Positions 1,927-15,117 of a DNA stretch of 23,071 bases are shown piece after piece. A model generated the notes under the pieces. That model made no database searches. It had not been told where the DNA came from and saw only the letters and a list, made by a program, of their open reading frames with translations. Location: IMG/VR virus record IMGVR_UViG_3300028829_003933, positions 1 through 23,071 of that record; one strand, 5' to 3'. The position numbers and the translations under genes were made by a program. Numbering within the stretch: position 1 is the first letter of the stretch; the number at the start of each line of letters is the position of its first letter. This DNA is from a virus.

Positions 1927-4900
1927 ATGGCAAAAATCCAAAGAAATTTTATCGCAGGCCGAATGAATAAAAGCCTTGACGAAAGGCTTATTCCTAATGG
2001 TGAGTATGTAGACGCTTTGAACGTAAGATTAGGTTCAACTGAAGAAACAGAAATTGGTGCGGCAGAAAATTCTAAGGGTAACACTCAAATAACAACACTT
2101 CAATATACGGATGGAACGTCCTTAAGTTCTTCAGCTCGATGTATAGGAGCATTTGATGATGGTGCTAATGAAACTATATATTGGTTTGTTCATGACCCTT
2201 CTTTTACTGTAGGCGCTACGGGTAAACTAGATTTAGTTGTATCTTTTAATGTTAACACAGGTTCTCTTTTATATCACGTAATTAGTATTGATAACGGAAC
2301 AAATGTTAATACTACTTTAAATTTTGACCCAAAATATTTAATAACAGGTATAAATAAAATCGGAGATTTATTGTTTTTTACCGACAATTTAAACCCTCCA
2401 AGAGTAGTTAATGTTAATTCTAACTACTCCAACCCTGCTGTAAACATAGATCAAATAACTTCAGAGGAATTACTAGTAGTTAAAAAACCTCCTTCTCAAT
2501 CTCCTCCTGTTGAATTAATTAAAACAGGCGTAGAAGATGCTTTTATGGAAGATAATTTTATTTGTTTTGCATATAGGTATAAATACTCTAATGGAGAATA
2601 CTCAGCTGTTTCTCAGTTTAGCGAACCTGCTTTTATACCAGGGGCGTATGAATTTTCTGCTGATAGTTTTTTAAATGAAGGTATGGAAAATGATTATAAT
2701 GGAGCTATCATTACTTATAACTCTGGGAGCTCATTGGTAGTTGGAGTTGATTTATTATTCAAAGAAGCTAACGACCCTACTATTAAGATTATAGAAAGAA
2801 TTAATAAGTTAAATAATAATCTAGCTAATAACACAGATTACACTTTTACTTTTACAAATAGTAAAATCTTTACAGTATTACCTGAATCAGAAATATTAAG
2901 ATTATATGATAATGTTCCTATAAAAGCAAAAGCTCAAACTTTAATGGGCAATAGACTTATTTACGGAAACTATGTAGAAGGATATGATTTAACTGATATA
3001 TTTAATTCACCTTTAGAATTAACTTATAACACAGAACTTGAAAATAATTCTATAGGCGAAACTTCTTTAGCAACTTCTTTTACAAGTTTTCAATATCAAG
3101 CTTTTGGTAATACCACGACTATTACAAATAATACTTTAGAATTAAGTTTTGCAAACAACACTGACAAACTAAAAAAGGGTGCTGAAATTAATATAGATTT
3201 TACTTTTACGTTTAATTCTTGGTTTGGTTCATCAACTCCAGACGAAAGCCAAGGCTCAACAAATATTTCTTTTAGCTACATTTTACAACAAGATTTTTCT
3301 CAATCTGCTACACCTGTTAATGATTTATTTTCTAGCACAGATTTTCAAGCTAAGTTTGGATTAACTGACGCATCAATTCAAACCGTTGCAAATGCTCAGG
3401 CTGGCACAGGTGTAACACTGACAGATAAATTTAATGCAGCTATAGATGGATTTTTGGGAAGCACTGCTCCTCAATACAATTTATATCAAACAGGTATTTC
3501 TAATTCCACTGCTGTTCCCCCTAATAAAGGTGAACCTATTTTTGGTTCAGCACCAGTAGGGAATAACTTAATAAGATTACAGATTCCAGCTGCTCAATTT
3601 TTAGAAGATGGCGGAAGTAATTTAATAATTCAATATTTTAATTTAACTTCAGCAACAGCTACTATTCAGGAAAGAGCAAACACAGAAAGTTTGCATAGTA
3701 ACAGGGGGTACGAAGTAGGTATTATCTATATGGATGATTTTAATAGATCATCTACTGCATTAGTAAGTCAAAACAATACTATTAATATTCCGTGTTCTGC
3801 ATCTACAACTAAAAATGAAATAAAAGTAAATATTCCAATTAGTCAAAGAGCGCCAAGTTGGGCAACAAGGTATAAGTTTTGTATAAAACCAGATAGAGAT
3901 ACTTATAATACTATATATAGTAGTATATTTTTTGAAGACCCTAACTCTAATAATGCTTACTTATTATTAGAAGGAGAAAATACAAAAAAAGTAGAAGAGG
4001 GAGATAGATTAATTGTTAAAAGAGATTCAGCTGGCCCAATGCAGTCATGTGTATATGCTACTGTTTTAGAGAAAGCAACACAAGATAAAGGATTTATAAC
4101 CCCTACTAGTTCAAGTGTTCCTCCCGGGGGTACGTATATGAAAATGAATGCTACTGACTTTTCAGCTCTTGAAGATGATGATGATATTGTAGATATAAAA
4201 GTCAACCCTGAAACTGCAGGCCAAGGTGATAGATATCCTGTATTATCTTATCCTTTCTTTTTAACTGGTGGTAATTATAATGTACCTGCAGGGTCAAGAA
4301 TTGTAATGAAGATTGAACAAACAAGAGAGGGAAGAGGTACTCAATGTGAAAGAAGAACTAACTTTTTTGAACAAAGCTTTATAGCTAGTGATACTTATAC
4401 AGACATGTATCAGTGGTTTACTCAATCAAACATTGCCAACTCTATAGAAAATAATTCTATTACAGATCCGTCAACAGGATCTGATGCTGTACAAAATGTT
4501 TTTATTAACACAGTAGAAGGGTCACAGTCAGGAGCTCCATCTTCAGGAGGTAATTTAACCAAAACACAATTACAAGCAGCGGGTCTAATGGGAAGCACTG
4601 CCACTGACCCATTAACAACTAATTATTATAGATTTTATCAAGACAGTGGTAATAATAATTACTATTTATTAGTAAGCGGTACAAGATGTTGTGGAGGTAG
4701 TTCGGCAGCGGATTCAACAGTAAGAGTTTCTTTTACTGTATATAGAAGAGATTCTGTTATTGTGTTTGAAACTGAGCCACAAGGCTCTTTACCAGACGTG
4801 TGGTACGAAAATGATTTATCTTTTTCTATAGATAATGTTGGAAACCACAGCGGTAATGTAACAAATCAAAACATAAACGCCGGAACTCCAGGTGTTGTAA

Positions 4901-7650
4901 ATACAGGTTTTTTTAATTGTTATGCATTTGGTAATGGTGTAGAAAGTTATAAGATAAGAGACTCTATAACCGGGAAGTCTTTTAACTTAGGAAACAGAGT
5001 TTACACCACCTCTAATGTTGAGTACAAAGCAGCGCATAGATTTGCTGATTTAACTTATAGTGGTGTGTTTAATGACGAAACAAATGTTAATAAACTTAAT
5101 GAATTTAATTTAGGATTAGCAAACTTTAAACCATTAGAAGAAACTTATGGTGATATTGAAATATTATTTGGAAGAAGAACAGATATTCTTACATTACAAG
5201 AAGATAAAATATCATACGTATTAGCTTCTAAAAATTTAATTTCTGATTCTACAGGCGGTGGTTTAGTAGCTTCAGTTCCAGAAATACTAGGAAACCAAAT
5301 AGCTCGTATTGAAAACTATGGTATTAGTAATAACCCAGAAAGTTTTGTAGCATACGGAGAAAACAAATATTTTACAGACTCTAAAAGAAATGCAGTAATC
5401 CAACTAATTGGAAGCTCTGCTCAAAACGAACAGCTTGTAGTTATATCAGAAAGTGGTATGAGAAGCTGGTTTAGAGATTTATTTACAAGCGCATTTACTA
5501 CGCAAAAATTAGGTGGATATGACCCGTATATGAACGAGTATGTATTAACATCTAATACTATTCTAAAACCTGAAGTTCCTCTATGTTTAGCGTGTGGTGT
5601 AAGCAAAGACATAACTGTAAAAGCATCACAAGACTTTACATATTGTGTTGATGTAACACAAGAAGTTGGAACAGTAACAGTAAGTTATGTTATACCCAAT
5701 GAAGGAGAGCAAGACATAATCTCTGAAACAAGTGTATTAATGACAGATGAAGCGGGCAACCAATTAATAACAGAAACTTCTGCTGGTTCTCTGGTAAATT
5801 ATACTATTCAAGTAATTTACGACGGAAATACTTATACTTCTGGTTCAGTATTTCAAGACGGTTCGTTTACTTTTCCAAAAAATTCTACATCTGCTCAGCA
5901 AGCAACAGTTATTGTTAGCACGGACTCAACAGAAAATGACACCATTCAAATTACAATGAGTTGTCCTGTTGCTACAACTATTAATTTATACAGTGTTTGT
6001 GTTACTGAACCTACTGATGCAGGTAAATATATACACAATGAATTTAACTGGACAGACGGAAGTACGACATCTACGGTTCAATCCGACTTAGTATTATTCG
6101 GGACAGGAACAACCACGTTCATTGTTTCTCAATACACGTTAATATCAGGAGGTCAAGGTTTAGCAATACCACCAGACGGATCTACTGTAACAATGTATTC
6201 TAACAAAATTAACTTTGATGACTTTGTATTTGACGCTTCATTAAACAACTTTAGATATTTGAGAAGTAATACAACTTACGCCAACAGTGTAACTGACATT
6301 ACTAGTTTATTGGCTGCAGCAACGACAGCTACACCTATTGACACAACAGGTGCTCCAACTATTTATTCAGCAGACTTTACTATGCCGTCAACAGGAGAAA
6401 ATAATTTATATTTAATTTGGGATTACAGAGATATTGTAACACCAACACCTGGTCCTAGTCCTAGTCCTATTCCGACTCCTAGTCCAACTCCAAGCCCAAC
6501 ACCTGGTCCTAGTCCAACACCTGGTCCTAGTCCTAGTCCAACACCTGGTCCTAGTCCAACACCTGGTCCTAGTCCTAGTCCAGTGCCAGTTACACCTACT
6601 CCTAGCGCACCGTTATTTTATTTCCTAATTTCTTGTGATGGAAGTCCAGGTTGTTATGAGTCATTCTCAAGTGCTCCTGGAGCTAACCAAAGATATATTG
6701 GTGGGGCAGGTAATAATATATTTTATTATTACAATTCAACACCAGGCGTACCAACAGATCAAGGTTCACCTTGTCAGAACATACAATTAATTAGTGGAGA
6801 AACAGGTTGTCCTCCTGCACCAACTCCAGCACCAGTGCCGACACCTCAAGCAACACAGGTATATGAGATGAGGAGATGTGATGGAGGTGGATCTACATAC
6901 TATGTTGAATTAACACAAACAGGATACCCTTTAAACTTTGCTTTAAAATTAAACGCACCTGGCTATATGGATGGAACTTATTGTTGGTATGTTAATGATA
7001 CTAATCCAAGTTCAAGCGCTGACTTTAGTGCAACTGTTCTGAATCAATACCCAAGTGGGTGTTCTGATGCAGCTTGTACAGCGCCTACACCAGCGCCTGC
7101 TGCGCCAACTCCAACACCATCGCCTATACCTACGCCTGCGCCTATACCTACGCCTGCGCCTACACCAAGTGCGCCAACATACTTGTATGCTAGATACTTA
7201 GAGGGTGATGTTTTAATTAATATAAGAGCTCCATTTGGAACAAACCTAGGCAGCGTGGCTAACGTGTTAGATGTGAGTGGAACGTGTTATGAATATCAAG
7301 ACGATGCAGGAATAGAAAATACCAACGACTATACAACATACACTATTTATGCAAACTGTACAGCTTGTCAAGGAGCTCCTTCTCCATCGCCAGCACCAGT
7401 TCCAACACCAGCGCCTGCAGTAACATGTAATAGTGTAAGTTTAGAATTTATTTCTGATACAAACTTCTTATGCGCTAATTATGCTACATTCTACATGAAC
7501 ACAACCGATTTCTGTACGGCTACTGCTTTAGATAGACAAAGTGATTGTAACAGAGCAGCGTTACCAGGTTATTATAACGACGGAAGTAATTATAGATACT
7601 GGAATGGTTCTGCATTTACAAGTAACTGTACCACAACGAATTGTCCTTAG
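1927..7650 (+). CDS. Giant tail/stabilisation protein with Pro-rich linkers and Cys modules (1907 aa)
   Basis: The N-terminus ([21 protein letters not shown], split around residues 8-28) resembles the start of phage tail-tubular B or 'stabilisation' proteins. A long beta-rich body follows. Near residues 1165-1205 is [14 protein letters not shown]...[12 protein letters not shown], a pattern seen in Bacteroidota phage tail proteins. After Ig-like beta domains, the last 400 residues change character. (X-Pro)n linkers lie at about 1505-1562 (25 uninterrupted X-Pro pairs), 1628-1644, 1718-1751 and 1817-1832. They separate four Cys-containing modules (about 1563-1629, 1645-1717, 1752-1816, 1833-1907), two of which contain CDG. 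This is likely a tail hub/nozzle protein carrying surface-exposed adhesion arms, with the linkers as candidate hydroxylation and glycosylation substrates of the next genes. Size and repeats are seen; function is inferred. Confidence 0.75.
6496..6579 (+). repeat. Two perfect 42-bp tandem repeats coding the (X-Pro)n linker
   Basis: Bases 6496-6537 and 6538-6579 are identical. Each is an 18-bp unit (CCAACACCTGGTCCTAGT) followed by the same unit with an extra CCTAGT. The 42-bp unit is in frame and encodes 14 residues of PTPGPS type. Identity at synonymous positions indicates recent slippage or recombination, so linker length probably varies between relatives. Confidence 0.95.
7123..7158 (+). repeat. 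Two perfect 18-bp tandem repeats in the third Pro-rich linker
   Basis: CCTATACCTACGCCTGCG occurs at 7123-7140 and again, identical, at 7141-7158. It is in frame and encodes PIPTPA twice. The codons differ from those in the larger 6496-6579 repeat, so the two linkers expanded independently. Confidence 0.95.
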
Positions 7651-7704: not shown

Positions 7705-8931
7705 ATGCAGCAGTATAAAAACTTTTTGACTCCCAAAGAGTGTCAAGAATTAATTCAAATGATTGACGCTAATCATACTCGATCTTCAGTAGTAGAAGGC
7801 GGTACAGATAGAACAGCTATATCTGACTATAGAACTTCAAGTACTTGTAATTTAAGCACCTCCAATGAAACTGTGAATAATATTCATAAGCGTATTGCAG
7901 GTATATTAAATTTAGACATTAAAAAAGGTGAAGCTATGCAAGGCCAGCTTTACGAAGTAGGTCAGTATTTTAAACCTCATAATGATTTTTTTGCAGGTGA
8001 CGCATATCAAAAACATTGTTTAGCTTCAGGGAATAGAACACACACATTTATGATTTATTTAAACGATGGTTTCAAAGGAGGGGGAACAAACTTTCCAAAT
8101 CAAAATATGGTAGTTAATCCAGAGACAGGCAAGGCAGTTATGTGGGAAAATATGAAAGATGGAAAAGTTTTAGAAGAATATATGCACGAAGGTGTAGCAA
8201 TAGAAGAGGGTAAAAAATATATTATTACTGCATGGTGGAGAGAAAATGATTGGGATGGAGCAGGTGATGAAAAACTTTATCAAGATTCATTACAACCAAA
8301 AAAAATTGAAACACCTGTAAATAAAACATATACACATAAAGATCAAATACCTAAATTTACAAAGAATGGTTTTGAAGTAATTAAGTGTCCTGAGCAAACT
8401 TGGAATATAATTAAAGACGCTTATGAAATACTAAAAGACAAGGTAACTCCTGAAAACTTTCCTGGGAAAGAAAACATCATACAAGGTGGAGAAAGCGAAC
8501 TTCTTTCATTTGACCACGTACCTTCCATTAGGACTCTAATACACGAGCAGCTCCTACCTGTACATAGAGATTGGATTGCTAATGAAATGCATAATGCTAT
8601 GAAAGAACCATTAATAGAGCCTTCATTTGTGTATGGAATACGTTCTTACAAAAAAGGTTCGACATTAACTCCTCATGTTGATAGGGTAGAAACACATCAT
8701 ATAAGCTCTATAATTATTGTGGATAAAGATTTAGCTTGTGGATGTTCTAATAAACCTGAAGCAGATGATTGGCCTTTAGATATTCAAGGGCACGATGGAG
8801 AGTGGTATAAAGTGTATGCTCAACCAGGAGATATGATACTGTATGAATCTGCAATTTGTGAACACGGAAGACTTGAGCCTTTTGGAGGAACATTTTTTAG
8901 AAATTTTTATGTACACTACAAATTTGTATAG
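7705..8931 (+). CDS. Tandem 2OG-Fe(II) oxygenase, N-terminal prolyl 4-hydroxylase-like (408 aa)
   Basis: Two double-stranded beta-helix oxygenase domains are fused. Domain 1 (about 1-180) has the prolyl-4-hydroxylase layout: KPHNDFF with iron ligands H92 and D94, GGGTNFP at 125-131, distal ligand H161 in MHEG, and K170/K171 for 2-oxoglutarate before YIITAWWR. Domain 2 (about 205-408) repeats the scheme: TPHVDR (H324, D326), PGDMILYESAICEH with distal H387, and R389 or R399 as the 2-oxoglutarate anchor. Both therefore look catalytically intact. The family uses Fe(II), O2 and 2-oxoglutarate to hydroxylate proline or similar residues. The gene lies directly between a Pro-rich tail gene and a glycosyltransferase gene, which makes the X-Pro linkers the obvious candidate substrate (inference). 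A host target such as a translation factor is the main alternative. Confidence 0.85.
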   Translation: MQQYKNFLTPKECQELIQMIDANHTRSSVVEGGTDRTAISDYRTSSTCNLSTSNETVNNIHKRIAGILNLDIKKGEAMQGQLYEVGQYFKPHNDFFAGDAYQKHCLASGNRTHTFMIYLNDGFKGGGTNFPNQNMVVNPETGKAVMWENMKDGKVLEEYMHEGVAIEEGKKYIITAWWRENDWDGAGDEKLYQDSLQPKKIETPVNKTYTHKDQIPKFTKNGFEVIKCPEQTWNIIKDAYEILKDKVTPENFPGKENIIQGGESELLSFDHVPSIRTLIHEQLLPVHRDWIANEMHNAMKEPLIEPSFVYGIRSYKKGSTLTPHVDRVETHHISSIIIVDKDLACGCSNKPEADDWPLDIQGHDGEWYKVYAQPGDMILYESAICEHGRLEPFGGTFFRNFYVHYKFV

Positions 8932-8934
8932 TAG

Positions 8935-9888
8935 TTGAAAAAATATATTTCATTTGATACGTGGTGGGGTGGTCTAAATAATATTAGAATGACTTATGAA
9001 ATGGTGGTTGCAATTGCAATATGCACAAATCGAACTATAATTTTACCGCCAAAAATATACTGTTTGTTTTTAAGTGAACATCAGCTTAAAGATAGTTTTT
9101 TTGATTTCTGGGAATTGTTTGACAAAGAATTATTTGTTAAACATTTTGATTGTGTAGACTATAAAGATATACCAGCTTATCAAAAATATGAATCTGACAT
9201 ACAATATTTTGAAAATATTTGCAAGGATATTAAATGTTTACCTGAAGGAAATCATCCCAACTGGGGTGTAAATCCAGACACTTATAAAAAGCCTATTGAT
9301 GTAAGTGAGTTTAATTTAAATAATAAATTTATTCATTTTCCTAGAAATTTGTTTGGCCATTGGTATCATTTGATAACAGGAATTTCCGATGAACATAGGA
9401 TGAGAATTAAACACAGTTTGAAATATGGATTAAAAATTAGAGATAAGTTTGAAATGAATTTAATAGCTAAACCATATAATGCTATTCACGTAAGAAGTGG
9501 AGACTTTCATCAGACAAGAACTCACAGTACAACAGAATTGTTTGGTAATTTAAGATCAATGGTAGATAGATATTTAGACACATCGTATCCTTTATTTATC
9601 GCTACAGATGAACAGGATAGAAAATACTTTGAGTGTTTAAATGGATATGAATGTTATTACTTAAATGATTTTATGGAAACTGATATGGTCTCTTCTATAG
9701 CAATAGATACGTTAATGTGTGCGAATGCAAGATTATTTTATGGAAGTAGGTACTCTACTTTTACTGATTACATTAACATTTTAAGGCATTACAATAACAA
9801 AAAAAACTGTAGTAAAAATTTATTAAATTACACTTTTACTGGCAAAGAAAAATATAGCTGGGAAAATTGTTTTGTAAATGAATATTAA
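8935..9888 (+). CDS. Fucosyltransferase-like glycosyltransferase (O-fucosyltransferase/alpha-1,2/1,6 superfamily, 317 aa)
   Basis: The sequence shows the superfamily motifs in order: GGLNNIR at 12-18, TNRTIILPP at 31-39, HVRSGDF at 185-191 (nucleotide-sugar binding), ATDE at 223-226 and GSRYSTFTDYINILR at 270-284. These are hallmarks of GDP-fucose-dependent protein O-fucosyltransferases and alpha-1,2/alpha-1,6-fucosyltransferases. The length is near full for the fold. The start is TTG at 8935: a TAG lies immediately upstream in frame, and the first ATG (codon 19) would remove GGLNNIR, so TTG is well supported. It follows the hydroxylase by 3 bp. The likely role is transfer of fucose or a related sugar to a protein or growing glycan. 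The actual donor and acceptor cannot be read from the sequence. Confidence 0.8.
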   Translation: MKKYISFDTWWGGLNNIRMTYEMVVAIAICTNRTIILPPKIYCLFLSEHQLKDSFFDFWELFDKELFVKHFDCVDYKDIPAYQKYESDIQYFENICKDIKCLPEGNHPNWGVNPDTYKKPIDVSEFNLNNKFIHFPRNLFGHWYHLITGISDEHRMRIKHSLKYGLKIRDKFEMNLIAKPYNAIHVRSGDFHQTRTHSTTELFGNLRSMVDRYLDTSYPLFIATDEQDRKYFECLNGYECYYLNDFMETDMVSSIAIDTLMCANARLFYGSRYSTFTDYINILRHYNNKKNCSKNLLNYTFTGKEKYSWENCFVNEY

Positions 9889-10015
9889 AGAAAAAAATAT
9901 TGTATATATATATGAATCTCCAGATGGCGGAATTACTTTATATAGAAGGCTTTATGGTAAATATGAATCAAGAGAGTTGTATGACAAAGCAAAAAATCTA
10001 TGGAATATAACTTAG
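9878..10015 (+). CDS. Small conserved-looking hypothetical protein (45 aa)
   Basis: ATG at 9878 overlaps the end of the fucosyltransferase gene by 11 bp. The TAG at 10013-10015 overlaps the start of the carbamoyltransferase gene by 16 bp, so it fills the only apparent gap within the cassette. The protein contains IYESPDGGITLYRRLYG followed by a charged helix. It resembles short phage proteins with a YESPDGGxTxYRR pattern that I recall from cyanophages and other marine phages; no function is known to me. Both overlaps fit translational coupling. It could be chance, but the protein-like composition and exact fit argue for a real gene. Confidence 0.6.
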   Translation: MNIKEKNIVYIYESPDGGITLYRRLYGKYESRELYDKAKNLWNIT

Positions 10016-11436
10016 GTTTATTTGGAAGTCACAACTCGGCGGTAGCTATAAGCGTCAACGACGAAATTAAAGAAGTTGTAGAGCTTGAGAGGTGGGTTGG
10101 TATAAAAAATGCAGCCTTTGCATATCATTTTCCTATATCAAATCCAGAAGAAGTTCTGCGGGATATTTTAAATTATTTTAAAAATAAATACGGAGCTGTA
10201 ACCTATAATACCGTTGCTTATAATTGCGATAATAATTTGCATAAAAACATTAGTGCTAAAAACTACCAGTACGTTCCTCATCATACCGCACATTGCGCAA
10301 ATGGTTTATACCAATCTACCTTTGATAGAGCTTTAGTTGTTAGTTTTGACGGAGGAAGTGAAGAGGGGTTTTTTAAAATATATGAAGCAGAAAAAGGTAA
10401 AGACCCTGTTCTTATAAATAATGTAGGTATAGATTTATGTGTTCCTTATGCAGCAGTTGCTCATTATTTAGAGCCAATAAAAACAGAAGATAATTGGTGG
10501 TGGGGAAACTTAGTATATGCAGGGAAAATTATGGGGCTTGCTGGTTTGGGAAAGGTTGACTATGGTTTAGTACCAAAATTTTTTAGTTATTATCTAGGAC
10601 AAAGTATAGATAATGTTAACATAGCTCATGAGAGATACCAGGCTTTAAATATAGAAGGCGACCCCGCCAACATAGCAGCAACTTCTCAATTTGTTTTTGA
10701 ACAAGTGTTTAGTAGCATTATAAATGGATATAAAAACAATTTGCCTTTAATTTTTTCAGGAGGTGGCGCAATGAATATAATCAATAATTCAAAACACAAA
10801 GCATTTGTATCTCCAAACCCTGATGATAGAGGTATTGCTTTAGGTTGTTTGCTTCATATTTTAAAACCAAGCGAAGTTGTGAATAGTATGTATATAGGAA
10901 TGACTTGGAATGATGATAAGTATAATCAATTAGACCCTATAGAATTTGCTAATAAACTTATTGAGGAAAAAATTATTGGATTGGTGCAAGGAAACTCAGA
11001 GCACGGAGCTAGGGCTTTAGGTAATCGCTCTATTTTATGTTTGCCAAAAAAAGGAATGAAAGATAAAATAAATTCACGTGTAAAATTTAGAGAACCTTAC
11101 AGGCCTTTTTCACCCATGTGTAGAGAAGAGGATAAGTATAGGTGGTTTAATTCAAAAAACAACACTATGTGGATGGCTCATAATGCGCAGGTAATAAATA
11201 ACTCTGAATCTATAGACTCTATAATTCATTATGATAATACCGCTCGTCTTCAAACAATCACGCAAACTTCTAATCCATACTTGTATATGGTTTTAACTGA
11301 GCTTGCTAACAAAGGGGTTGATCCAATTATTTTAAATACTTCATTTAATAAACAGGGTAAGCCTATACTTAATACAATGGAGGAAGCTAAATGGATGTTA
11401 GATAATACAGGCTTAGATGATTTGGTAGTTTTATGA
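10000..11436 (+). CDS. NodU/CmcH-family carbamoyltransferase (478 aa)
   Basis: Family members transfer the carbamoyl group of carbamoyl phosphate, via carbamoyl-adenylate, to a hydroxyl of a sugar or other small molecule. Hallmarks are visible in order: GLFGSHNSAVAI (6-17), PHHTAHCANGLYQSTFDRA (93-111) with the His cluster, SFDGG (115-119), SGGGAMN (253-259), QGNSEHGARALGNRSIL (330-346), REPYRPFSP (364-372) and NTSFN (446-450). The N-terminal ASKHA-type domain is shorter than in NodU, but all key motifs are kept. The start overlaps the 45-aa gene by 16 bp, and the stop overlaps the next ATG (ATGA). In this context a sugar hydroxyl on a virion glycan is the likely acceptor. Carbamoylation of a modified DNA base is an alternative, as carbamoyltransferases of viral metagenomes have been reported to act on 5-hydroxymethylcytosine. 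Confidence 0.9.
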   Translation: MEYNLGLFGSHNSAVAISVNDEIKEVVELERWVGIKNAAFAYHFPISNPEEVLRDILNYFKNKYGAVTYNTVAYNCDNNLHKNISAKNYQYVPHHTAHCANGLYQSTFDRALVVSFDGGSEEGFFKIYEAEKGKDPVLINNVGIDLCVPYAAVAHYLEPIKTEDNWWWGNLVYAGKIMGLAGLGKVDYGLVPKFFSYYLGQSIDNVNIAHERYQALNIEGDPANIAATSQFVFEQVFSSIINGYKNNLPLIFSGGGAMNIINNSKHKAFVSPNPDDRGIALGCLLHILKPSEVVNSMYIGMTWNDDKYNQLDPIEFANKLIEEKIIGLVQGNSEHGARALGNRSILCLPKKGMKDKINSRVKFREPYRPFSPMCREEDKYRWFNSKNNTMWMAHNAQVINNSESIDSIIHYDNTARLQTITQTSNPYLYMVLTELANKGVDPIILNTSFNKQGKPILNTMEEAKWMLDNTGLDDLVVL

Positions 11437-12254
11437 AAACTATTTTTTTAAACATAGCAAGTTATAGAGACCCTGAGTTACTACCTTCTATTACTGATTG
11501 CATTAACAGAGCAAAGTATCCTGATAGAATTTACTTTGGTATTCATGAACAGGACGAGACGCACAATAGTAGCCTTGATAAAATACATAATTTAAAATAT
11601 GATTATATACATTTTAAAAAGTCTAAAGGCACAGGATATTCAAGAAATTATATTAATAAAAAATTATATGATGGACAAGATTATGTTTTACAAATAGATA
11701 GTCATACTCGTTTTATACAAGACTGGGATGTAATGTATATAGAAGATTATAATCAGTTTGATGAAAAAGTAATTTTAACAGGGTTTCCACCTCAATATAA
11801 AATAGGAGATTTATATGATGATTATAAAATGTATCCATCTAATAATGCAGTAAAACCAAAACATATTACGCCGAACCACAAAATACTTTCCGAGTCAGAA
11901 CCTTTTTATACTGATTACATTCAAACTTATGTGGCTTCTGGAGCGAATACTTTTATGCCTAAATCTTTTATAGAAAAATCTACTTTTGATTTATATGTTG
12001 ACCCTTTTGCTGACCAAGAAATAATTTCTTTAGCAGCACATCTTTTTGGTTACAAAATGTTTGTTACTCGTAGACCAAAACTATTTCATTGTTATGCTAA
12101 TAATTTAAAAGGAAGTGAAGAAAAATTTAGACCACTTATAATAGATGATTTAAAAATCACTAACTTTGAAGTGGATTTTACTTTAGCTTTTAAAAATTGT
12201 AAAACTATAAACACATCTGAGAGCTGGGTTAATTTAATTAAAAATCAAATATGA
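11433..12254 (+). CDS. GlcNAc-transferase-like protein, Skp1 hydroxyproline GlcNAc-transferase family (273 aa)
   Basis: The sequence has the pattern of the 'Glycosyltransferase (GlcNAc)' family (Pfam PF11397, CAZy GT60). FLNIASYRDPELLPSI is at 5-20, FGIHEQD at 35-41, GTGYSRN at 66-72, and VLQIDSHTRFIQDWD at 85-99 carries DSH as the DxD-like metal/nucleotide motif. VASGANTFMPKSF (167-179) and VDPFADQEIISLAAHLFGY (189-207) resemble the acceptor side. The characterised founder, Dictyostelium Gnt1, attaches GlcNAc to a hydroxyproline of Skp1. The co-occurrence with a prolyl-hydroxylase-like gene makes hydroxyproline-linked glycosylation a specific prediction. It is coupled on both sides by 4-bp overlaps. 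Family placement is from motif recall; substrate is inferred. Confidence 0.75.
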   Translation: MKTIFLNIASYRDPELLPSITDCINRAKYPDRIYFGIHEQDETHNSSLDKIHNLKYDYIHFKKSKGTGYSRNYINKKLYDGQDYVLQIDSHTRFIQDWDVMYIEDYNQFDEKVILTGFPPQYKIGDLYDDYKMYPSNNAVKPKHITPNHKILSESEPFYTDYIQTYVASGANTFMPKSFIEKSTFDLYVDPFADQEIISLAAHLFGYKMFVTRRPKLFHCYANNLKGSEEKFRPLIIDDLKITNFEVDFTLAFKNCKTINTSESWVNLIKNQI

Positions 12255-12802
12255 TATTAGAAAAAATAAAATTAGACTTCGATTATTCATACTTTCTTGC
12301 TGAAAAACAAGACTATAACTTTCATAAAGGTTCATGTATATCTTATCAAAGGGAAGAACAAAATGATTTATACAATGAATATGGTAATGGTTATTCTTAT
12401 GATGAAAACAATACAGTTATACAACAACTTTGGTATGACATTAAAGACCCTATATTTGATGGCTGGGAAGATAAATTAAACATGGATATTAAAACCGTGT
12501 CTACTATTATGCAGCCACCAGGAAACGTTGTAACATTGCATAGAGATACATTTTTTAAATTTAAAAAACTTTATCCAGATGATAAACGTACAAAAGTAAG
12601 ACTAAACCTTTACTTAGAAGATTGGAAGATTGGTCACATGATTCAATATCAAGATATTCATAACAATAAAAAGTGGACTACCTCTGTGGACTGGAAAGCA
12701 GGAGATGGTTTACTATGGGATAGCTCTGTACTACACCTTTCTTGTAATGCTGGTCAAAAAGATAAATTTACTATGCAAGTATCTGGATTCCGTAGAGATT
12801 AA
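12251..12802 (+). CDS. 2OG-Fe(II) oxygenase-like hydroxylase (183 aa)
   Basis: A single cupin-like oxygenase domain. MQPPGNVVTLHRDTFF supplies the HxD pair (H97, D99), RLNLYLEDW is a typical beta strand, and AGDGLLWDSSVLH gives the distal iron ligand H162. R181, or K172, may bind 2-oxoglutarate. The pattern resembles small phage oxygenases and aspartyl/asparaginyl-hydroxylase-like proteins. It is the last gene of the cassette, overlapping the GlcNAc-transferase by 4 bp and followed by a 53-bp gap. It is the third oxygenase domain of the cassette and is not a close copy of the other two. It may hydroxylate a different residue or position of the same tail proteins, but its substrate cannot be read from sequence. 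Confidence 0.7.
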   Translation: MILEKIKLDFDYSYFLAEKQDYNFHKGSCISYQREEQNDLYNEYGNGYSYDENNTVIQQLWYDIKDPIFDGWEDKLNMDIKTVSTIMQPPGNVVTLHRDTFFKFKKLYPDDKRTKVRLNLYLEDWKIGHMIQYQDIHNNKKWTTSVDWKAGDGLLWDSSVLHLSCNAGQKDKFTMQVSGFRRD

Positions 12803-12855: not shown

Positions 12856-14730
12856 ATGGCTTGTGTAACGTATGATATAGTCTGTCCCATAGGGGCGGTA
12901 GGAGGCGAGTGTACTTTTACAATTAATTGTTGTGACGGAACTAAAACATCTGTTACAATTCCTGAAGAGGATACACAGCAAGTATGTTTAGAAGTTCCTG
13001 CTAATATAGTAGTAACCTCTATATCAGGTTCTTATAATACATCAGGAGCTTCTTGTTCAACTAACTGTGGTTATGTTGACCCTACTCCTGTACCTACACC
13101 TACTCCCGCTCCAATACCTACACCTGGGCCTAGCCCAGTTCCAGTTACACCTACTCCTGTAGCGCCTGGACCAACTCCAGTATATTACTATTGGTCTGCT
13201 ACCGCATGTGACGGAAGCAATATTACTACATTTAGGACAACAGATTCTAATGTAGGAAACACCCTGCTTTCTGTTTATAGTATTGGTGGAGACGGATTGT
13301 GTTATGAGGTTGAGGCAGGAGGACCTACTAACAGCAATGATATTTTATCAGCATACGCTGATTGCGCAGATTGTTGTACTAAAGTTCCTTCGAGTCCTTC
13401 TTGTACACCAACTCCATCACCAGTCCCTGGTCCTTCGCCTACGCCTGTAGCGCCAGTGCCAGCGGTTGTTCCTTCGCCTTTAGTGCCAGATTATTGTTTA
13501 GGTGGAGAAAATGAAACTACAATACAACTAATTCAAGGATTTAATAAATATGTTTTTGGTTCTAATTATGGAAGTTATGGGGTTCAATTAGGAACTTATG
13601 TTTTAAAGAACGTTCCATCTAATCATCCTATAGCTATATTAAATACAGGTAAAACCGCAGAACTAACTTACACGGGGACTACAAATGCAGGGACAGGAAC
13701 AGCACCTGACGGCAACACGTATGATTATTTTTATGGTGATGTCACAATAACAGTTATAGGAGATTTTGGAGTACTTAGTTATGCTTGTTTATACCATGGT
13801 TATATGGGTGGTGGTTATAATTTATATTACAATAGCAGTGTTTGTAGCTCTCCAACACCTAGTCCTTCTCCAGTTCCAACAGCAACGCCTGCTCCTACTA
13901 GTATTGTTCCTCCAATACCATCTCCTGTTGACACAGAGTATACATTAACATATAGTCAATCTTCAAAAGGATGGCCATCGTTTTATTCTTATATACCCGA
14001 GATAATGTTAGGAATGAATAATTACTTTTATTCATTCAATGGAGGTAATTTATTTCAACACAATATAAATGAAACAAGAAATAATTATTATGGCACACAA
14101 TATAATTCACAAATAACAAGTGTGTTTAATGAGTCGCCACTTGAAAACAAAATATTTAAAACTATTAACCTAGAATCTGACACAGCTTGGCAAGCCGTAG
14201 CGGAAACGGATATACAGCAAAATGGATTCATTGATAACGATTGGTTTGTAAAAAAAGAAGGAGCGTATTTTGCTTACCTAAGACAAACAGGGGAAGTGCC
14301 TGCGCTGCAAGGACAATATGCAATGAGATCAGCTAATGGTATAGGAAAGTCTAGTAGTTATTCGGTTAACGGAACAACAGGTACTTTAAACTTTTCTATC
14401 AATCCACTTGTTTCAATAGGTAGTATAATTAGCATAGGAGATTATCTATACTTCTCTGTGCCTTCTTATACCACAATAAGTTTAGCGGGTGTAGTGACAA
14501 ATATACAAGTAGATTTACCTAACAATATAAATAGAATAACTATATCAACATCAGTTACAGGCTCTTCACCTATAACAATTAATGATGCTTACATATTATT
14601 TATCAAAAATGCAGAGGCAGAGTCTCACGGTTTACTTGGACACTATTGTATATTTACTGTTACAAACACAAGCACAACAGCTACTGAATTGTTTGCTATT
14701 GAGTCGGAAGTTATGAAAAGCTATCCGTAA
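12856..14730 (+). CDS. Second Pro-rich, Cys-rich tail/receptor-binding protein (624 aa)
   Basis: Mosaic protein. Residues 1-71 hold a module with eight Cys. An (X-Pro)n linker spans 75-109. Residues 110-174 hold a CDG...CY...CADCC module like those at the end of the 1907-aa protein. A second linker lies at 177-212. Residues 213-330 form a beta domain with H257 and the sequence CLYHGYM (C311, H314, M317), a cupredoxin-like ligand set. A third linker lies at 332-358. Residues 359-624 form a domain beginning KGWPSFYSYIPEIMLGMNNYFYSF (split here at about 371-394), of a type I recall from tail proteins of marine and Bacteroidota phages. The likely role is a tail fibre, spike or adhesin. Its position just after the hydroxylase/glycosyltransferase cassette makes it a second candidate substrate. 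Functions are inferred from architecture. Confidence 0.75.
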   Translation: MACVTYDIVCPIGAVGGECTFTINCCDGTKTSVTIPEEDTQQVCLEVPANIVVTSISGSYNTSGASCSTNCGYVDPTPVPTPTPAPIPTPGPSPVPVTPTPVAPGPTPVYYYWSATACDGSNITTFRTTDSNVGNTLLSVYSIGGDGLCYEVEAGGPTNSNDILSAYADCADCCTKVPSSPSCTPTPSPVPGPSPTPVAPVPAVVPSPLVPDYCLGGENETTIQLIQGFNKYVFGSNYGSYGVQLGTYVLKNVPSNHPIAILNTGKTAELTYTGTTNAGTGTAPDGNTYDYFYGDVTITVIGDFGVLSYACLYHGYMGGGYNLYYNSSVCSSPTPSPSPVPTATPAPTSIVPPIPSPVDTEYTLTYSQSSKGWPSFYSYIPEIMLGMNNYFYSFNGGNLFQHNINETRNNYYGTQYNSQITSVFNESPLENKIFKTINLESDTAWQAVAETDIQQNGFIDNDWFVKKEGAYFAYLRQTGEVPALQGQYAMRSANGIGKSSSYSVNGTTGTLNFSINPLVSIGSIISIGDYLYFSVPSYTTISLAGVVTNIQVDLPNNINRITISTSVTGSSPITINDAYILFIKNAEAESHGLLGHYCIFTVTNTSTTATELFAIESEVMKSYP

Positions 14731-14751: not shown

Positions 14752-15117
14752 ATGGACTTTAGTATAAGGAAATTAAAGACATCTGATTATAATGATGTAT
14801 TGATAGGTTGGTGGAAAGATTGGGGTTGGCAAGCGCCAGCTCAAGATTTTTTACCAGAAAATGGCGAAGGTGGTTTGATGGTAATGTTAGATAACAAGCC
14901 TGTTTGCGCAGGTTTTATGTATGTTACCAACTCAAAGGTAAGTTGGGTTGATTGGATAATATCGGATAATAAAATAGAAGATAAAGCATTGAGACACGAG
15001 GCAGTTAAATTTTTAGTTAGTACCTTAACAAATATATGTTCACAAAACGGAGGATATATTTATGCTTTATTAAGACACGATGGTTTAATTAAAACTTATG
15101 AAGAACACACGAAATGA
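14752..15117 (+). CDS. Small GNAT acetyltransferase-like protein, apparently shortened at the C-terminus (121 aa)
   Basis: The protein starts with IRKLKTSDYNDVLIGWWKDWGW and FLPENG (split around residues 5-37), then GGLMVMLDNKPVCAGFMYVTNS, a beta hairpin as in N-acetyltransferases. The helix EAVKFLVSTLTNI follows, then YIYALLRHDGLIKTYEE. This resembles a small GNAT-like family frequent in marine phages. Those relatives usually continue with a Gly-Phe segment and end in an EMIK-type sequence. Here the frame stops at TGA 15115-15117, while a different frame at 15111-15131 reads EMIKKI followed by TAA. A frameshift plus small deletion is therefore suspected. The substrate is unknown; a structural role is possible. 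Confidence 0.6.
   Translation: MDFSIRKLKTSDYNDVLIGWWKDWGWQAPAQDFLPENGEGGLMVMLDNKPVCAGFMYVTNSKVSWVDWIISDNKIEDKALRHEAVKFLVSTLTNICSQNGGYIYALLRHDGLIKTYEEHTK

Follow-up and report, generated by a model that had tools for sequence, protein, structure and literature searches.

A prolyl 4-hydroxylase and exchangeable glycosyltransferase genes within a split tail-tip gene of crAss-like phages: a candidate system for hydroxyproline-linked glycosylation

The window analysed here is a 23,071 bp stretch of viral DNA (IMG/VR record IMGVR_UViG_3300028829_003933, positions 1 to 23,071), in which open reading frames (ORFs) were called and the encoded proteins scanned for family matches. At positions 7705-12802 it carries a cassette of enzyme genes headed by a prolyl 4-hydroxylase (P4H)-like gene, and on either side of this lies a virion gene that encodes (X-Pro)n linkers; the muzzle genes, linkers and cassette genes of the window are all on the + strand. 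Relatives of the flanking virion genes were found in Cellulophaga phages phi38:1 and phi46:3, the Flavobacterium elemo phages, Maribacter phage Panino and a Manatee Spring podovirus, and the virion gene order is common to the window, phi38:1, phi46:3, the elemo phages and Panino. The window comes from a crAss-like phage of the marine flavobacteria type.

The upstream virion gene (1927-7650) encodes a structural protein of 1907 amino acids (phrog_14478, E = 1.7e-213) that is homologous to the N-terminal part of the muzzle protein which phi38:1 and the elemo phages encode in a single gene, and the downstream gene (12856-14730) encodes a 624-residue protein with the crAss_MUZ_C domain (PF25729, E = 2.1e-18; phrog_38031, E = 4.3e-97). 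Both the PF25729 domain and the conserved virion gene order, which mark a Crassvirales muzzle, are present in the window, and the two genes encode the N- and C-terminal parts of one muzzle (tail-tip) protein. The two parts form a single gene in phi38:1 and the elemo phages and two adjoining genes with no insert in phi46:3, while MW202828 and many environmental relatives have one unrelated gene between them. Likewise, in relatives that lack P4H this site holds one unrelated gene of ~180-560 codons or is empty. The cassette thus occupies a site of variable content at which one tail-tip protein is split; the original prediction had placed it exactly between two tail proteins, and the genes on either side are indeed virion genes that encode (X-Pro)n linkers, but both belong to the same muzzle. 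In phage PhicrAss001 the muzzle protein gp44 is a hexameric gatekeeper at the end of the tail (PMC10172136).

The proline-rich linkers of both parts, which the original prediction had pointed out, go far beyond what composition would give. The upstream protein has 98 (X-Pro)n residues in four runs (6439-6588, 6811-6846, 7102-7167 and 7375-7416), where 0.26 were expected and 10 was the maximum in 2000 shuffles of the protein, and its last ~400 residues consist of small Cys-containing segments chained together by these linkers. The downstream protein has 46 such residues in three runs (13078-13143; 13405-13446, TPTPSPVPGPSPTP; and 13849-13878, SPTPSPSPVP), against 0.33 expected and a maximum of 16 in the same number of shuffles. 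The longest run, 6439-6588, ends in SPVP and is encoded by an 18/24/42-bp tandem repeat (6442-6582); it is 50 residues long in the window and 88 in locus L002 (residues 1505-1592), in a region that is otherwise ~100% identical. With this difference of 38 residues the linker is a fast-changing tandem repeat, which perhaps allows the length of the tail to vary.

The first gene of the cassette (7705-8931) encodes a 2-oxoglutarate (2OG)-Fe(II) oxygenase (PF13640, E = 7.6e-15) that had been described as a P4H-like enzyme. We found that this description holds for residues 1-184 (H92, D94, H161, K171) and has to be amended for the remainder, as a second 2OG domain occupies residues 216-408 (H324, D326, H387, R399). 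Searched with phmmer against solved P4Hs, residues 1-184 matched the Bacillus anthracis enzyme at 5.8e-26, human C-P4H-II at 1.7e-17 and the Chlamydomonas enzyme at 2e-13, and a profile of the hydroxylase family matched Chlamydomonas P4H at 5.4e-23 and human C-P4H-II at 1.1e-22. The HxD...H triad and the 2OG-binding lysine of the N-domain are invariant in 23 relatives. When an AlphaFold (AF2) model of the whole enzyme (pLDDT 85.4) was compared with known structures by VIA-align, it came closest to 3gze, the structure of an algal P4H with bound (Ser-Pro)5, with Z 24.0 and an rmsd of 2.1 Å over 180 residues. The best 15 entries found in a fold search with the P4H domain were all P4Hs, and the P4H of virus PBCV-1 (5c5t) has the same fold (Z 20.3). 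The second domain matched the 2OG oxygenase 6n1f (Z 15.4). The HxD motif of this domain has changed in L015 and is missing from L151, with the N-domain motif kept throughout that set, and L055 and L061 have only a C-domain-like protein. Homology and modelled fold strongly support the prediction that the N-domain is a prolyl 4-hydroxylase with activity on peptidyl proline.

Four further enzymes follow, and family scans agreed with the five families that had been named for the cassette, though weakly for the last of them. The gene at 8935-9888, with a TTG start, is predicted to encode a GDP-fucose protein O-fucosyltransferase (O-FucT)-like enzyme (PF10250, E = 4.5e-13, 49.9 bits against a cut-off of 31.5) with an HxRxGD-type donor-site motif (HVRSGD at residue 185) and a match to POFUT2 structures at 1e-4; no acceptor EGF or TSR domain was recognised. 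This is followed at 10000-11436 by a NodU/TobZ-type O-carbamoyltransferase (PF16861, E = 3.6e-48; PF02543, E = 7.3e-12; phrog_1601, E = 5.5e-88), which has both N- and C-domains and the HHxAH motif (HHTAH at residue 94) and matches the solved structures 7xb6 (8.9e-34) and TobZ (8e-29). The gene at 11433-12254 encodes a short, 273-residue form of a GT60-type glycosyltransferase (GT) (PF11397, E = 9.7e-32, 111.2 bits against a cut-off of 21) with a DSH metal motif at residue 89; its best stretch covers profile positions 101-274 of 352, and all 7 divergent phage members match PF11397. The motif is conserved as DSH or DAH. The Skp1 hydroxyproline (Hyp)-N-acetylglucosamine (GlcNAc) transferase presumably belongs to the same PF11397/GT60 family. 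The Hyp glycans of Skp1 and the GT60 family have been described, with members acting on Thr/Ser (α-GlcNAc) as well as on Hyp (PMC8724618). Finally, the gene at 12251-12802 encodes a 183-residue 2OG oxygenase-like protein that matched PhyH at 0.002, below the Pfam cut-off; its HxD...H residues (H97-x-D99, H162) are invariant in the 6 relatives aligned, and a model built from those 6 sequences (pLDDT 48.8) was too poor and was left out of the fold search. NCBIfam gave no name to the P4H, O-FucT, GT60 or 183-residue proteins of the window.

These genes are tightly packed, with a gap of 3 bp, then 111 bp (9889-9999) between the O-FucT and carbamoyltransferase genes, and then two 4-bp overlaps. The claim that all gaps were of 3 bp or less holds if an ORF for 45 amino acids at 9878-10015 (MNIKEKNIVYIYESPDGGITLYRRLYGKYESRELYDKAKNLWNIT), which overlaps both neighbours and is conserved in L002, L013 and L114, is counted, but the five enzyme genes alone leave the 111-bp gap. 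The O-FucT-like, carbamoyltransferase and small 2OG oxygenase genes recur as a set in L055, L061, L114 and L122.

To compare the site across relatives, IMG/VR and isolate genomes were scanned three times with the muzzle as anchor, once for P4H and once for GT, which gave 286 loci; a scan for genes resembling those of the hydroxyproline O-arabinosyltransferase (HPAT) family came later. The comparison covered 175 deduplicated muzzle blocks that were complete or longer than 6.5 kb and used a threshold of at least 16 (X-Pro)n residues. All 60 of the 60 P4H-positive blocks reached this threshold, compared with 7 of the 115 that lack P4H (four of the seven form a GT60 subclade, and the runs of the other three are short and of the Asp/Lys type); among complete blocks the counts were 46/46 and 3/110. 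No X-Pro run was found downstream of the muzzle gene in 81,062 residues of the same loci. The co-occurrence of P4H-like and GT genes with (X-Pro)n tail proteins that the original prediction had asked about was therefore found among the relatives, and a P4H cassette without a proline-rich tail protein, the case that would speak against it, was not. Fisher's test on these counts gives p = 1.9e-39, which takes no account of ancestry and which we rejected as statistical proof. The muzzle tree yields no more than 3-5 independent P4H/linker pairs, which is not significant; this paucity of gains weighs against the proposal that the cassette acts on the linkers, as do the observations on P4H-less loci and on a cyanophage given further on. 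With so few events the contrast is descriptive, reflects largely shared ancestry and should not be quoted as a p-value.

Could the cassette be a coincidence, with a hypervariable site collecting assorted morons and the (X-Pro)n runs arising by generic linker drift? Such an origin would fit the single unrelated gene, or none, at the site in P4H-less relatives, the slippage-prone tandem repeat that encodes the linker and the small number of events behind the co-occurrence. However, the lack of any linker-free block among the 60 with P4H, the confinement of X-Pro runs in the same loci to the tail block, with none downstream, and the retention of P4H while GT genes turn over, which we turn to now, leave us regarding coincidence as very improbable.

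Turnover was counted on the tree for 58 distinct muzzle types bearing P4H or GT60. The P4H domain is found in 51 of the 58, with 5 changes, whereas PF11397 is found in 19 with at least 9 gains or losses and an HPAT-like gene in 20 with at least 11. PF23452, the HPAT family, and PF11397 never occur together (0/58, where independence would give 6.6; uncorrected P 3.7e-5). Four of six diverse HPAT-like members matched PF23452 at E<=0.01 (1.3e-5 to 1.4e-7, above the cut-off of 23.9), so that these genes of the relatives are predicted, from their sequences, to be remote homologues of the HPAT family that would transfer sugar to Hyp. In IMG/VR all 43 of 43 HPAT-like loci adjoin a P4H gene in the same tail locus, none lacking it, and X-Pro runs occur in nearly all of those in which tail proteins were captured. 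Some cassettes consist of P4H and HPAT only (L060, L146, L300, L302, L305 and L307), and one, L075, of P4H only. This turnover of GT genes around a kept P4H and linker is better evidence than the co-occurrence count. As two GT families, one named for Hyp and one of the Skp1 type, alternate behind one hydroxylase, the simplest reading suggests that hydroxyproline in the linker is their common acceptor.

The composition of the linkers bears on the same question. The X position is Ser/Thr in 32% of cases in muzzle types with the P4H/O-FucT/carbamoyltransferase set and in 25% in types with the C-domain-like protein only, Val, Ala and Ile being dominant, so that such linkers would offer few hydroxyl acceptors without Hyp. 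Ser/Thr-poor linkers (17-35%) were found solely in loci with a P4H-family gene.

We did note other genes in these cassettes. A DegT-type (PseC-like) aminotransferase gene and dTDP-glucose 4,6-dehydratase-like genes occur in HPAT cassettes (L070, 7627-8814; L110, 11299-12312), and because the neighbouring dehydratase resembles those acting on dTDP-glucose, the donor may be an amino- or deoxy-sugar instead of arabinose. A radical SAM/SPASM protein joins P4H and GT60 in several cassettes (L015, 7185-8084; L073, 7453-8358; L081; L151), hinting at further modification of peptide or sugar.

A second explanation is that the linker glycans are mucin-like, being started by GT60 on Thr/Ser, and that P4H merely stiffens polyproline-II linkers and provides no glycan anchor. 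As noted above, GT60 includes Thr/Ser α-GlcNAc transferases (PMC8724618), and a P4H-less GT60 subclade (L018, L019, L020 and L023), in which no PF13640 gene was found in contigs of up to 52 kb, keeps near-pure (Thr-Pro)n linkers with 87-91% Ser/Thr; the linker and some glycosylation would therefore be independent of P4H. GT60-positive linkers are also richer in Ser/Thr (0.77 versus 0.59 and 0.48), the linker class of the window having 52%. Moreover, in 30 of 80 IMG/VR loci with a long-form GT60 an X-Pro protein, mostly of the (TP)n type, is encoded no more than 10 kb away, and no P4H of the window's family was found in any of the 80; the enrichment of X-Pro proteins next to long-form GT60 is modest (11/90 versus 23/498, p 0.011). 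Against this, the HPAT-like module always comes with P4H and its Pfam family, PF23452, is named for Hyp, linkers of the O-FucT/carbamoyltransferase class without GT60 have only 17-45% Ser/Thr per locus, and the short GT60 of the window is ~25% identical to the long form, the GT60 of the P4H-less subclade sharing 49% identity with its counterpart in Xanthomonas jumbo phage XacN1. We regard glycosylation of Thr/Ser with P4H as a mere stiffener as unlikely for the cassette as a whole, though it is the alternative to be taken most seriously. Where GT60 acts alone, its acceptors are probably the Thr/Ser residues of (TP)n, with P4H being an addition that widens the set of acceptors. In the window, where the P4H neighbour speaks for Hyp, the GlcNAc site could be Hyp, Thr/Ser or both.

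Long-form GT60 genes were common in large phages (L342-L421; L290, L341 (XacN1)), often near (Thr-Pro)n proteins and with no P4H of the window's family, suggesting a separate and widespread Thr-type glycosylation of linkers. XacN1, which likewise has X-Pro proteins nearby and no such P4H, encodes GT60 and a carbamoyltransferase as a pair at a distance of ~9 kb from a TP-linker protein of 3.3 thousand residues.

A third explanation is that the cassette acts on a glycan outside the tail, either a host surface polysaccharide, to exclude superinfection, or phage DNA, with carbamoylation as the last step. NodU/TobZ-like carbamoyltransferases use sugars and small molecules as substrates, nucleotide-sugar enzymes are found in relatives, and in Synechococcus phage S-SCSM1 a cluster of O-FucT, 2OG oxygenase, carbamoyltransferase and epimerase genes lies amid tRNA and metabolic genes, away from the tail genes, so that the O-FucT, 2OG and carbamoyltransferase genes may be general phage sugar genes. 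However, every relative has the cassette within the split muzzle gene, the smallest cassettes consist of P4H or of P4H and HPAT alone, both of the GT families seen are protein glycosyltransferase families, and no gene supporting DNA hypermodification was found within the 23-kb window. We consider a target outside the tail improbable.

S-SCSM1 (L339, L340 and L291) also matches PF13640 13 times, and ~110 residues of one of its virion proteins are (Arg/Gln/Asn-Pro)n. Its baseplate hub protein finishes with a run of Ser/Thr/Arg-Pro, and 3 kb downstream of the hub gene lies a P4H-like gene ('ferrochelatase'). With these features and its O-FucT/2OG/carbamoyltransferase cluster, the phage is a possible independent case from the cyanomyoviruses, a separate lineage in which P4H-like genes are numerous and X-Pro virion proteins occur.

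Returning to hydroxyproline in the linkers, we conclude from sequences and models that the cassette is probably a module dedicated to modifying the muzzle protein of the phage itself after translation. The link between enzymes and substrate, a guess when it was originally proposed, has become a well-supported hypothesis through the comparison of relatives (60/60 blocks and the swapping of GT genes) and the algal P4H fold, although the association is largely ancestral. In the infected cell the P4H domain would hydroxylate proline residues of the (X-Pro)n linkers, polyproline-II-like stretches present in both muzzle halves, drawing on host 2-oxoglutarate, Fe(II) and O2; homology, fold and comparison strongly support this step. 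A GT, the short PF11397/GT60 enzyme here and the PF23452 HPAT-like enzyme in many relatives, would then put the first sugar on hydroxyproline, and GT60 may also, or instead, target neighbouring Thr/Ser. The O-FucT-like enzyme, carbamoyltransferase and small 2OG oxygenase might conceivably extend or decorate the glycan. Modified in this way, the linkers of the distal tail would be stiff, coated with glycan and resistant to proteases, and swaps of cassette genes could change the type of glycan they carry. For crAss-like phages of the flavobacteria type more generally we lean, by a little, towards a modular, plant-like Hyp O-glycosylation of tail tips, in which one P4H works with exchangeable initiating GTs to give a lineage-specific glycan.

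The proposed system resembles the Hyp O-glycosylation of extensins and arabinogalactan proteins in plants and green algae, in that the P4H shares its fold class with the (Ser-Pro)5-binding algal enzyme, the substrates would be (Ser/Thr/Ala/Val-Pro)n and an enzyme of the PF23452 HPAT family directly adjoins P4H in phage relatives. It differs in being encoded by a phage in one operon, without a secretory compartment; the HPAT similarity is remote (1e-5 to 1e-7), and the window itself has GT60, not HPAT. The protist Skp1 pathway (a cytoplasmic P4H, GT60-type Gnt1 adding GlcNAc to Hyp, and later Gal and Fuc) shares the cytoplasmic pairing of P4H with a PF11397 GT and a fucosyltransferase in the set. 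However, Skp1 is a folded protein with a single Hyp, whereas the phage substrates would be repetitive linkers; the phage GT is short, at about half of the PF11397 profile, and the phage O-FucT is POFUT-like, unlike the enzymes of the protist chain. Virion proteins of mycobacteriophages are O-glycosylated by phage-encoded glycosyltransferases that act on structural proteins. Two GTs have been noted as suggesting capsid glycosylation (PMC11256854). The mycobacteriophage case likewise involves phage GTs and phage structural proteins, but other GT families, and is without prolyl hydroxylase or hydroxyproline. PhicrAss001 gp44 has the same PF25729 C-terminal domain, while the muzzle of the window is in two genes, has extra X-Pro-linked segments and holds the cassette between its halves.

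The nearest viral precedent is the prolyl hydroxylase vCPH of PBCV-1, a virus-encoded P4H of the same fold, reported to have viral proline-rich peptides as substrates (Eriksson 1999, as cited in PMC9301287); PBCV-1, however, is a eukaryotic algal virus. Viral P4H genes abound in seawater, but according to one survey the use that viruses make of them 'remains cryptic' (PMC9301287). With a likely substrate on both sides of the enzyme gene, the use of a viral P4H becomes directly testable in the window phage and in the dozens of relatives that have P4H and swappable GT genes in a split tail-tip gene. We know of no GT cassette linked to vCPH and of no precedent for Hyp-linked glycosylation in bacteria or their phages, and found no report of it for phages in the open literature searched. 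If the proposal is true, this would be the first such case, would answer what phages use a prolyl hydroxylase for and would extend Hyp-linked glycoproteins beyond eukaryotes and their viruses. It would also give the host-facing part of the virion a swappable glycan coat, and P4H together with either GT60 or an HPAT-like GT would form a compact bacterial toolkit with which Hyp-glycosylated repeats could be made.

P4H-like genes outside this group were also considered. A pattern scan of 84,980 species genomes, which is insensitive to distant homologues, confirmed no bacterial relative of the two-domain P4H or the HPAT-like protein. MT838812, a human-gut record with a 39% identical P4H, was rejected as a further case, since no X-Pro protein or GT adjoins the gene and its neighbours resemble a bacterial chromosome. 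The genomes of Erwinia phage Y3, Salmonella phage Sen-NF and Microcystis phage Mel-JY01, which have P4H-like genes, contain no run of seven consecutive X-Pro dipeptides; these P4Hs probably do something else, and our proposal is therefore limited to the phage clade of the window.

Directly 3' of the downstream muzzle gene, at 14752-15117, lies a gene for a 121-residue phrog_17252 protein that is conserved across the phage group, the MW202828 homologue being annotated as an N-acetyltransferase subunit. In L022 and L308 the gene for the N-terminal part of the muzzle is split into several short ORFs, with the cassette and the 624-residue X-Pro protein intact, which suggests frameshifts or assembly errors.

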